Shown here one piece after another: positions 23,414 to 61,436 of a stretch of DNA of 64,000 nt. Every line of letters starts with the position of its first letter. The first letter of the stretch is position 1. The stretch lies in assembly GCF_000763055.1 (NCBI RefSeq), contig NZ_KN214136.1, forward strand, positions 261,764-325,763. The letters are read 5' to 3'. Source of the DNA: Collinsella sp. 4_8_47FAA (GTDB lineage Bacteria > Actinomycetota > Coriobacteriia > Coriobacteriales > Coriobacteriaceae). Below the pieces are notes generated by a model. It was not told where the DNA came from, did not search any database, and saw only the letters and a list, made by a program, of their open reading frames with translations. The position numbers were made by a program, and so were the translations under genes.

Positions 23414-23486
23414 ATAAGTTGCGGTGAAATAGGGACTGTTTAAACGATTCAACCCCAAATTCAGTCCCTATTTCACCGCAACTTAT
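23414..23486. repeat. 25-bp perfect palindromic repeat, family A copy 1
   Basis: Arms at 23414-23438 and 23462-23486 are perfect reverse complements of each other (start ATAAGTTGCGGTGAAATAGG) over a 23-base loop. A related copy is at 54168-54236. Size and intergenic location suggest a REP- or MITE-like element. Confidence 0.8.
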
Positions 23487-23589: not shown

Positions 23590-23718
23590 GCTCGCCTGCC
23601 GGGCGGGCGCGGGTTAAGTTTGTCGCGAGTTCCGCACGCAAAGGAAAGCACTTAATGTGCTTTCCGTCTTGCGCAGGACTGTAGAGCAGCAAACTTAACC
23701 CGCGCCCGCCCGGCGAGC
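23590..23718 (+). repeat. Composite stem element, copy 1 (upstream of ptsH)
   Basis: Outer arms at 23590-23622 and 23690-23718 pair over 29 bp with a 4-base bulge (TGCC) in the left arm. Between them is a core starting TCGCGAGTTCCGCACG, with an inner hairpin GGAAAGCAC (23643-23651) / GTGCTTTCC (23657-23665) over TTAAT, then CAGGACTGT. Copy 2 at 61318-61436 (opposite strand) shares the core but has different outer arms. The element points towards ptsH, 141 bases downstream. It could be a structured leader RNA or a small mobile element. Confidence 0.75.
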
Positions 23719-23859: not shown

Positions 23860-24123
23860 ATGGTTTCTGAGAAGGCTACCCTCGTTAATCCTCAGGGTCT
23901 GCACATGCGTCCGGCTGGTCTGTTCGCCTCCACCATGGGCAAGTACGCCTGTGACGTGACGGTCGTCACCCCCGAGAAGGAGGTCAACGGCAAGTCCCCG
24001 ATGGCCCTCATGGCTGCTGGTATCCCCTGCGGCACCGAGGTCGAGGTAAAGTGCGACGGCGCTGACGAGGCCGAGGCTCTGGCTGCTGCCATCGAGCTCA
24101 TCAAGAGCGGTCTTGGCGAGTAG
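23860..24123 (+). CDS. ptsH: Phosphocarrier protein HPr
   Basis: An 87-residue HPr. The phospho-His is in NPQGLHMRPAG (His15 by usual numbering) and the regulatory Ser region is NGKSPMALMAAG (Ser46-type). It carries phosphate from EI to sugar-specific EII proteins and can signal through Ser phosphorylation in Gram-positive bacteria. AAAAAGGAG precedes the ATG at 23860. A terminator-like hairpin separates it from ptsI, which may let HPr be made in excess of EI. Confidence 0.95.
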   Translation: MVSEKATLVNPQGLHMRPAGLFASTMGKYACDVTVVTPEKEVNGKSPMALMAAGIPCGTEVEVKCDGADEAEALAAAIELIKSGLGE

Positions 24124-29806: not shown

Positions 29807-29883
29807 GGCCCGTTCGTCTAGCGGTTTAGGACGCCGCCCTCTCAAGGCGGAGATCACCAGTTCGAATCTGGTACGGGCTACCA
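29807..29883 (+). tRNA. tRNA-Glu (CUC), copy 1
   Basis: A full cloverleaf. The acceptor GGCCCGT pairs with ACGGGCT (one G-U pair), the anticodon stem CCGCC/GGCGG holds loop CTCTCAA with anticodon CTC, and the T arm is ACCAG/CTGGT around TTCGAAT. CCA is encoded. Confidence 0.96.
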
Positions 29884-29905
29884 CTTCTTTTCTGCTGAGG
29901 CTTAT

Positions 29906-29982
29906 GGCCCGTTCGTCTAGCGGTTTAGGACGCCGCCCTCTCAAGGCGGAGATCACCAGTTCGAATCTGGTACGGGCTACCA
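29906..29982 (+). tRNA. tRNA-Glu (CUC), copy 2
   Basis: Identical over all 77 bases to the copy 22 bases upstream, including encoded CCA. The spacer is unrelated to the tRNA. The two share a promoter and the terminator at 29992. Confidence 0.96.
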
Positions 29983-59684: not shown

Positions 59685-61292
59685 CTATCCGCACACACCG
59701 CATTTTGCACAGGCCGAAAGTGCGGCCGGAGCCTGCGCGATGCCGCCCTTTGCCGTCTCGCGCAGCGTGGCTGGCAACGCGTGGCCCACCGAGAGCATTA
59801 CATGTGCCATCTGGTCAAACGGCACCAAGCTCTTAATGCCTGCGAGGGCGAGTTGTGCCGAGTTAAAGGCCGCTGCTACGCCGATGGCGTTGCGGTTTTG
59901 GCAGGGCACCTCCACGAGGCCACCGACGGGGTCACAAACGAGGCCCAGCAGGTTACTCAGCGCGATGGAACTGGCGTCGAGCGCCTGCTCGGGCGTGCCG
60001 CCGAGCATCTGCACCAGCGCGGCGGCTGCCATGGCGGCGGCGCTTCCCACCTCGGCCTGGCATCCGCCCTCGGCGCCGGCGACGCAGGCGCTCGTGGTGA
60101 GGTTGAGGCCGATGGCGGCTGCGCAGTAGAGCGCGTCCATGACCTGCTCGTCGTCGAGCTGCAGGCGATCGGCGAGCGCCAGCACGCAGCCGGGCACAAC
60201 ACCCGCTGAGCCTGCCGTGGGGGCGGCGACGATCACGCCCATGGTGGCGGAGCGTTCGAGCACGGCCATCGCGCGGGCCACGGCATCGGTCTGAACGGGG
60301 CCCATCAGGCTTGCGCTCAAATCGTTGCGGCCGGTGGCTTCGACAAGCTTGGCCTCGCCGCCGATAAGCCCGCCGAGCGAACGCTGCGGATTGGCGATGG
60401 GGGCCGTGGTCTCCTCGCGCATGACGTCGAGCACGCGGCGCATGGCAGCGACGGCGTGGGCCTCGCCGGTCAGACGCGCCTCGCGAACGGCCATGACGGC
60501 GCCGATGCTGAGCCCCAGTTCCTCACACGCATCGAGCAACTGCTCGCCGTCGTCGAAGATTTCCTTGGCCGAGACGCCGGGGGAGAGCGACGAGGCAGAA
60601 CCGGGGAGTTCGATAAACGTTGCGTAATCGACATTGTCGAGCTTGCGCAGCATGGGGACGACGGTGTCGTCGGGCGCGCCGTCGGTCTCAAAGACGGAGT
60701 AGGCCTGGCCGCCTACTTCGGTGCGGTAGGTGCGGCAGAAGGCGATGTTCACGTGTGCGTAGGCGAGCAGGTTGGTGAGCGCGGCGAGTACACCGGGGAC
60801 GTCCTTGTGCGCCACGAAGAGCGTGGAGTACATGCCCGAGATGTCGACGCCGACGCCGTTAATGCGGCTGATGCGCATCTTGCCGCCGCCCAGGCTCTCG
60901 CCGCGAACCTGTGCCGTGGCGCCCGTGTCGTCTACCATGTCAATGTCGACGGTATTGGGGTGGATGGAGGCGTCGTCGCCCTTGATGTCAAAGTGATATT
61001 CGAGGCCCTGCTCGCGAGCGAGGTCGAAGGCCTGCTTGATATTCTCGTCATCGGTGTCGAGGCCTAGGATGCCCGCGACGAGCGCACGATCGGTGCCGTG
61101 GCCGCGGTAGGTGTGGGCGAAGGAGTTCCACAGGCCAAAGGTGACTTTGGTGATGCGGCCTTCCAGCAGGCTGGCAGCAACTTGGGCGCACCGCAGGGCG
61201 CCGGCGGTGTGCGATGAGCTGGGGCCGACCATGACGGGGCCCAAGATCTCGAATGCCGAGGTCGTAGCTAGTGTTTGCGGCTTGCCTGCCAT
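59685..61292 (-). CDS. sdaA: L-serine ammonia-lyase, iron-sulfur type, beta-alpha fused
   Basis: A 535-residue single-chain L-serine dehydratase. The N-terminal beta domain has GPVMVGPSSSHTAGALR, an ACT-like segment lies near 160-240, and the alpha domain includes GVIVAAPTAGSAGVVPG and the Cys residues expected for the 4Fe-4S cluster (ACVAGAEGGCQAEVG, CDPVGG). It converts serine to pyruvate and ammonia. The ATG at 61292 follows GGAGC; the open frame beyond it only translates the repeat element at 61318-61436. That element lies directly before the ribosome site. Confidence 0.92.
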   Translation of the reverse strand: MAGKPQTLATTSAFEILGPVMVGPSSSHTAGALRCAQVAASLLEGRITKVTFGLWNSFAHTYRGHGTDRALVAGILGLDTDDENIKQAFDLAREQGLEYHFDIKGDDASIHPNTVDIDMVDDTGATAQVRGESLGGGKMRISRINGVGVDISGMYSTLFVAHKDVPGVLAALTNLLAYAHVNIAFCRTYRTEVGGQAYSVFETDGAPDDTVVPMLRKLDNVDYATFIELPGSASSLSPGVSAKEIFDDGEQLLDACEELGLSIGAVMAVREARLTGEAHAVAAMRRVLDVMREETTAPIANPQRSLGGLIGGEAKLVEATGRNDLSASLMGPVQTDAVARAMAVLERSATMGVIVAAPTAGSAGVVPGCVLALADRLQLDDEQVMDALYCAAAIGLNLTTSACVAGAEGGCQAEVGSAAAMAAAALVQMLGGTPEQALDASSIALSNLLGLVCDPVGGLVEVPCQNRNAIGVAAAFNSAQLALAGIKSLVPFDQMAHVMLSVGHALPATLRETAKGGIAQAPAALSACAKCGVCG

Positions 61293-61317: not shown

Positions 61318-61436
61318 GTCCCGAGGGCGGGGCATAAGGTCGCCTGCTCGGACAGTCCTGCTCGCACGGAGAGCACATTAAGTGCTCTCCGGCTCGTGCG
61401 GAACTCGCGATCGACCTTATGCCCCGCCCTCGGGAC
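61318..61436 (-). repeat. Composite stem element, copy 2 (upstream of the serine ammonia-lyase gene)
   Basis: Outer arms 61318-61342 and 61412-61436 are a perfect 25-bp inverted repeat whose sequence differs from the arms of copy 1 at 23590-23718. Read on the minus strand the core again starts TCGCGAGTTCCGCACG. It has an inner hairpin GGAGAGCAC / GTGCTCTCC over TTAAT (plus-strand positions 61368-61376 and 61382-61390), then CAGGACTGT. An A-T pair of copy 1 is a G-C pair here. The element ends 26 bases before the start codon, in the same relative orientation as copy 1 to ptsH. Confidence 0.75.

Follow-up and report, generated by a model that had tools for sequence, protein, structure and literature searches.

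The question raised by this locus is why two long hairpins in one window of DNA (the window being the whole stretch of 64,000 nucleotides that was analysed) share the sequence of their centre while the arms that close them differ, and whether such hairpins act where they stand, as a structured leader RNA, or are copies of a small hairpin-ended mobile element. Both answers had been offered in the original prediction.

The two hairpins and their family

Copy 1 occupies positions 23590..23718 of the plus strand, with its AGGACTG side directed towards ptsH (23860..24123, plus strand), a gene with homologues in 45 of the 45 genus genomes searched. It consists of a left arm (23590..23622), in which positions 23598-23622 pair perfectly and an outer 7 bp pair beyond a 2-nt bulge, the 5' core TCGCGAGTTCCGCACG (23623..23638), which is near-invariant throughout the order, an inner hairpin GGAAAGCAC-TTAAT-GTGCTTTCC (23643..23665), in which 6-8 of the 9 pairs covary, the conserved 3' core CAGGACTGTAGAGCAG (23674..23689) and the gene-facing right arm (23690..23718), all on the plus strand. 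Copy 2 (61318..61436) lies on the minus strand, with its AGGACTG side towards the gene for L-serine ammonia-lyase (59685..61292, minus strand), and is made up, on that same strand, of a left arm (61412..61436), the 5' core TCGCGAGTTCCGCACG (61395..61410), an inner hairpin GGAGAGCAC-TTAAT-GTGCTCTCC (61368..61390), the conserved 3' core CAGGACTGT (61352..61360) and a gene-facing right arm (61318..61342), the last of which stops ~25 bp from the serine ammonia-lyase ATG. Both hairpins were found where they had been predicted, with TCGCGAGTTCCGCACG and CAGGACTGT common to the two. As had also been noted, the 9-bp inner stems GGAAAGCAC/GTGCTTTCC and GGAGAGCAC/GTGCTCTCC differ by one A-T pair in the former and one G-C pair in the latter, and the outer arms are unlike between the copies and each self-complementary; their pairing is perfect over 25 bp, to which copy 1 adds its imperfect 7 bp. 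A covariance-model search of the window scored copy 1 at 105.5 bits (E 5.5e-26), and the folding z-scores of copies 1 and 2 were -10.3 and -9.3, respectively, with 0 of 200 shuffled sequences equally stable in either case.

The 15-nt core CGCGAGTTCCGCACG occurs 22 times exactly in the 2.28-Mb genome and has only one match with a single mismatch, so that chance origin is excluded. Members of the family are non-coding and ~95-155 bp long (one genome copy, L012, is truncated at the tip of its hairpin). A pattern scan placed ~20-28 copies in each of ~25 of the 45 genus genomes and 0-7 in the remainder, and the covariance model gave from 0 to ~36 matches per genome within one genus. Collinsella genomes without any element include G024, G026 and G044. 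We conclude that the two hairpins belong to an apparently undescribed repeat family, with ~20-35 members in a genome of the Collinsella aerofaciens type.

The covariance-model search of Coriobacteriia that had been suggested returned many further homologues: the model R1, which was built from 32 copies, matched 121 of 249 sampled genomes and 34 of 99 genera in the order Coriobacteriales (E<=1e-6). At the level of the family it matched 63 of 67 genomes, with counts that may include the weaker opposite-strand match given by a true copy. No match outside the order Coriobacteriales was obtained in a 396-genome sample of the phylum, a scan that also serves as a control for the specificity of R1. 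When ~85,000 species genomes were scanned with one core-variant pattern, chosen so as to avoid the aerofaciens variant, 59 loci were found and 59 of the 59 were in Coriobacteriia, from the genera Collinsella, Gordonibacter, Paraeggerthella, Adlercreutzia, Enteroscipio, Rubneribacter, Ellagibacter and Enterorhabdus. By the R1 counts, roughly one in two of the genomes sampled from this order, a major gut-associated group that includes Collinsella, Gordonibacter, Adlercreutzia and their relatives, carries the element.

Comparison with published Collinsella motifs, which had been proposed, was negative: no model in Rfam 15, including Collinsella-1 (RF01700; PMC2864571), matches the element at gathering or relaxed thresholds. 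No description of the family was found in the literature searched, most subscription papers being outside that search, and the family appears to be unannotated. Spread by plasmids was rejected, the sole match in a plasmid collection being a 900-kb 'plasmid' record that carries the chromosomal genes rpsO-pnp-rnj; the match has the window's core variant, and the carrier is named Collinsella aerofaciens. This record (NZ_OY725717.1, 'plasmid 6', locus L392), with its rpsO, pnp and rnj genes, resembles a piece of chromosome. Spread by phages was likewise rejected, as scans of IMG/VR gave no match.

Structure, covariation and the strand that folds

The consensus core of the family reads GCGAGUUCCGCA ... 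inner hairpin ... AGGACUGUCYGAGC, and it is enclosed by arms of ~20-49 bp that pair with each other and are different at every locus. As a rule, small dispersed repeats are identified by their conserved ends, and here the reverse holds: the centre is conserved and the ends are free. Two-sided changes were observed in 15 of 15 arm pairs and 6 of 9 inner-hairpin pairs among 32 genus-level copies, and in 14 of 14 arm pairs and 8 of 9 inner-hairpin pairs among 82 order-wide copies. In the 82-copy alignment, which was model-fitted and therefore leans towards the model, and in which the cells of the pair counts are not independent events, 95.6% of cells are paired, compared with 67% after shuffling, and covariation is 0.69, compared with 0.15 for shuffled and 0.07-0.13 for slid alignments. 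The core is near-invariant throughout the order while the arms and the inner hairpin covary, and this covariation strongly supports the proposal that the pairing is compensatory and that the hairpins form a real structured class.

Within the core, a stem GUUC/GGAC adjoins tandem G-A on both sides of an internal loop. This stem varies too little to show covariation; L096 and L150 are separate copies in which the G opposite U is replaced by A and the pair is kept, U.G becoming U-A. The topology of the internal loop resembles that of a kink-turn, a likeness that we offer as a lead only. The short linkers of the core change as modules, CAAA occurring with CTTGCG, AGCC with GTGCGAG and AACA with GTCGTGAG. 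At orthologous sites, where the 5' core was conditioned on, diversity in the 3' core CAGGACTG is 0.000-0.036 as against 0.12-0.33 in the left flanks, one further value of 0.449 being due to indel misalignment.

Mismatches in the arms allowed the two strands to be told apart. Outside the aerofaciens clade we counted 105 G.U and 45 A.C mismatches (p=1e-6), with equal treatment of G.U and A.C in the counting and after removal of near-identical arms, and the excess of G.U was seen both in stop-facing copies (56:28) and in start-facing copies (39:14). An earlier count over all copies gave 93:57, and a model-fitted alignment gave 79:16, the latter count being biased towards G.U. These observations identify the TTCCGCA...AGGACTG strand as the one whose folding matters outside the aerofaciens clade, as RNA or as single-stranded DNA; strand-specific tolerance of G.U is a mark of structured RNA, and folded single-stranded DNA would give an equal signal. 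Within the aerofaciens clade no G.U bias was observed (18:22), and Watson-Crick pairs account for ~95% of arm positions. That the arms of this clade are so nearly perfect, and contain few wobbles, suggests DNA copying, of which template switching (PMC8794818) is an example.

The AGGACTG-side arm abuts coding sequences

The arm on the AGGACTG side lies within 25 bp of a coding sequence in 10 of 22 copies in this genome, 32 of 45 copies in other species and genera and 19 of 29 copies in named genomes, and the opposite (left) arm does so in 0 of 22, 2 of 45 and 1 of 29, respectively, gene edges having been taken from a simple ad hoc codon-usage caller that was compared with the RefSeq annotation at one locus, pnp/rnj. 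Uniform placement of the elements in the same gaps gave means of 2.0, 8.5 and 3.9, and the observed values were never reached in 20,000 simulations. The edge most commonly faced is the stop codon of an opposite-strand gene, at a median distance of 14-18 bp; otherwise it is the RBS or start of a same-strand gene. Of the non-Collinsella copies, about two-thirds are directed at a stop codon, mostly from 3-25 bp behind it, and one-third at start codons; in this genome the gene faced is on the same strand for half of the copies, most of which stand further off (median 205 bp). Since start- and stop-facing copies both occur, with either direction of the gene, the polarity is towards the coding sequence and not towards transcription. 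This polarity is our main new finding: the AGGACTG-side arm abuts the edge of a coding sequence whatever the direction in which that sequence is transcribed. It could stem from insertion activity or from selection, and we know of no mechanism that accounts for a polarity of such repeats to coding sequences.

The genes faced are mainly housekeeping genes, including thrB, leuD, leuS, serA-like, cysS, ffh, rbfA and the serine ammonia-lyase gene at their starts, and manA, tsaD, pnp, ftsH, purF, ilvN, relA/spoT, leuC, gatB, asd, gyrB and pheS at their stops. One gap may house two copies back-to-back, each directed towards its own gene and with a terminator in between, as at manA/pcrA. At locus L045 (genome G015), the leuC stop and the leuD start face separate elements within one intergenic gap, and the two cores in that transcript are in consequence largely complementary to each other.

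These positions bear directly on the idea of a leader RNA. The original prediction had both copies upstream of a gene and in the same orientation, which is correct for the copies before ptsH and serine ammonia-lyase and fails as a general rule, most other copies lying behind a stop codon and antisense to that gene. A leader would be placed in the 5' UTR, on the same strand as the gene downstream, and a same-strand gene is faced by only 9 of 31 intergenic copies in the named genomes and 14 of 45 in other species and genera. At most about one-third of copies are placed in a 5' UTR with an RBS immediately after them, and the rest are antisense just behind stops or farther upstream of a gene; the term 'structured leader RNA' is thus apt for that minority and not for the remainder.

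Allelic variation, mobility and rival explanations

Across the aerofaciens clade most elements keep their positions, and several loci vary in an informative way. Examination of relatives for empty sites, which had been advised at the outset, revealed a clean presence/absence polymorphism behind manA: in 10 genomes the hairpin stands between TAG-GTC and GTAAC, and in 12 genomes, including the most divergent, G022, there is an uninterrupted sequence of the TAG-GTC/GCAAC type. This is the only clean empty site that was found, no target duplication is evident there, and the direction of the change, insertion or loss, is one that we infer. At ptsH there are two arm alleles; genomes G007 and G035 keep only part of a right arm, and G002 (L071) has the element turned round between the same arms, the most obvious exception to the polarity rule that was seen. 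The serine ammonia-lyase gene also has two arm alleles, and in several genomes a remnant of the right arm that belongs to the other allele is still present; by parsimony, the right arm would be the new one and the left arm would have been rewritten to fit it. The pcrA copy of G002 (L381) is a hybrid, a product of recombination within the core, whose left and right arms come from different alleles, so that full pairing is impossible. In G001, the pnp/rnj pair of elements was apparently lost through deletion between the outer arms, and at the L004 locus there is only a 27-bp hairpin, which resembles one arm. We found no likely donor of the manA arms, and no clear non-element source of arm sequences in ~1.2 Mb of G001 and all the loci retrieved, and copying of arms from elsewhere in the genome was rejected on these grounds. 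The inverted, hybrid, half-deleted and empty alleles are natural material on the making and keeping of perfect palindromes, and the hybrid with its mismatched arms is a ready-made test of how important arm pairing is.

The reading that we favour, with about even confidence, is that the family consists of short, non-coding, non-autonomous mobile hairpins specific to Coriobacteriales. Gain and loss of the whole element, its inversion and its order-wide dispersal fit such a hairpin, and the strand bias is consistent with a single folded strand being recognised. The proposed small hairpin-ended mobile element is accordingly the better of the two original answers, in view of the manA polymorphism, the G002 inversion, the recombinant copy and match numbers that run from 0 to ~36 per genome, with the correction that variable ends, a conserved centre and no target duplication seen do not describe a plain transposable element. 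A putative factor would recognise the folded single strand (ssDNA or RNA) and insert it beside coding sequences with fixed polarity; the arms would stay complementary through selection for folding and through copying at the DNA level, whether by template switching or by gene conversion from one arm to the other, and the copies kept would be those that are harmless or useful where they sit, at gene borders. That these hairpins represent a new kind of element, in which a folded strand is recognised and placed by a dedicated activity at coding-sequence edges, with fixed polarity whichever way the gene runs, and with a new complementary arm pair built at each insertion, throughout the order, is a proposal that we regard as rather unlikely.

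Partial parallels exist for a mobile hairpin. Integron attC sites are recognised as a folded single strand and lie just behind a stop codon; the likeness to the present element is by analogy only, as attC conserves boxes and structure, not a long core sequence, and has no counterpart of the start-facing copies. The double-hairpin elements of fungal mitochondria are mobile and undergo compensatory arm changes, as here; they are elements of organelles, and we know of no such conserved core and no gene-edge polarity among them.

Several observations weigh against mobility. No transposase, integrase or reverse transcriptase was linked to the element and no target-site duplication was recognised. 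An active element would not usually have positions as stable as most of these are across the aerofaciens clade, that clade lacks the G.U bias, and, with no likely donor found for the manA arms, the acquisition of new, perfectly paired arms upon insertion goes unexplained. Also, a core conserved at every site could equally mean a local RNA function.

Such a function, a cis-acting structured RNA selected at each gene border, is the chief rival, and we consider it possible, though on the whole improbable. A polymerase arriving from the intergenic side would transcribe the core in the sense direction just before it entered the gene, and the RNA would putatively act by attenuation, termination or processing of read-through or antisense transcripts, or in leader control before the RBS. 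This would explain the polarity and the sense-strand G.U bias jointly, and leaders do recur across species and genera before cysS, serA, leuS and thrB. The conserved U.G pair that became U-A in two separate copies, and the tandem G-A on both sides of the internal loop, as in k-turn-like folds, point the same way. So does the constancy of CAGGACTG at orthologous sites beside differing flanks, although exchange between copies, which was observed, can also give core identity. Stop-facing copies, however, would be transcribed in the sense direction only by antisense or read-through transcription, and the ptsH copy is inverted in G002 and gone in G007 and G035. There is no -10-like promoter signal to the left of the arm; a promoter of the element's own, with a start site at the left arm as hinted by boundaries between CA and GG, was rejected because its -10 scores do not exceed those of mirrored or distant windows. 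The RNA motifs in Rfam, including Collinsella-1 (RF01700; PMC2864571), resemble the present family in their covarying structure, conserved unpaired letters and occurrence in Collinsella, and differ from it in that the family has no Rfam 15 match and a gene-border polarity that is independent of the direction of transcription.

Far less probable is a REP/RAYT or ordinary MITE family, in which conserved terminal inverted repeats would let a Y1 transposase or a parent insertion sequence move the copies. Like REP, BIME and REPIN sequences (PMC2817692, PMC3733652, PMC3116915), the elements are short, palindromic, dispersed in many copies between genes and at times paired back-to-back in inverse orientation, and REP ends also lie near ORF ends (PMC3733652); moreover, a Y1_Tnp gene is present in many Collinsella genomes. 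Yet the covariance model found 0 element matches in 23 windows around Y1_Tnp genes, and G019 (23-24 elements) and G017 (12) have no detected Y1_Tnp gene; with co-occurrence so imperfect, the RAYT/REP form is largely refuted. The family differs further in its conserved interior, unconserved termini and locus-unique arms of 20-49 bp: in place of a GTAG or CGTC tag at the end of the palindrome, its left boundary falls between A and GG, the arms being otherwise unrelated between loci. MITEs and the RUP, BOX and ERIC repeats (PMC10969869, PMC3049150, PMC2229807) are likewise small, non-coding and dispersed, with presence and absence between relatives; MITEs, however, carry terminal inverted repeats that are conserved, usually with target duplications, whereas here the arms differ at each locus, conservation is lowest at the termini and no target duplication is evident at the one clean empty site.

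Ordinary transcription terminators or stabilising hairpins of 3' UTRs that share a core by chance are a most improbable explanation, for although some two-thirds of non-Collinsella copies stand closely behind a stop, one-third face start codons, the sequence of the core and not its pairing alone is conserved, the polarity of the core relative to transcription is opposite in the stop- and start-facing classes, distinct intrinsic terminators are found past the element (behind manA, for example), and no T-tract follows the stem in the flanks inspected on either side, on which ground the intrinsic terminator was rejected.

Two other features of the window were noted. A second palindromic repeat (AAGTTGCGGTGAAATAGGGACTG ... 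CAGTCCCTATTTCACCGCAACTT) is present at positions 23416-23486, upstream of copy 1, and a relative of it fills the orthologous site of element locus L056 in G001. At positions 29807-29979 there is a tandem pair of tRNA genes, ~25 bp apart and of equal covariance score.
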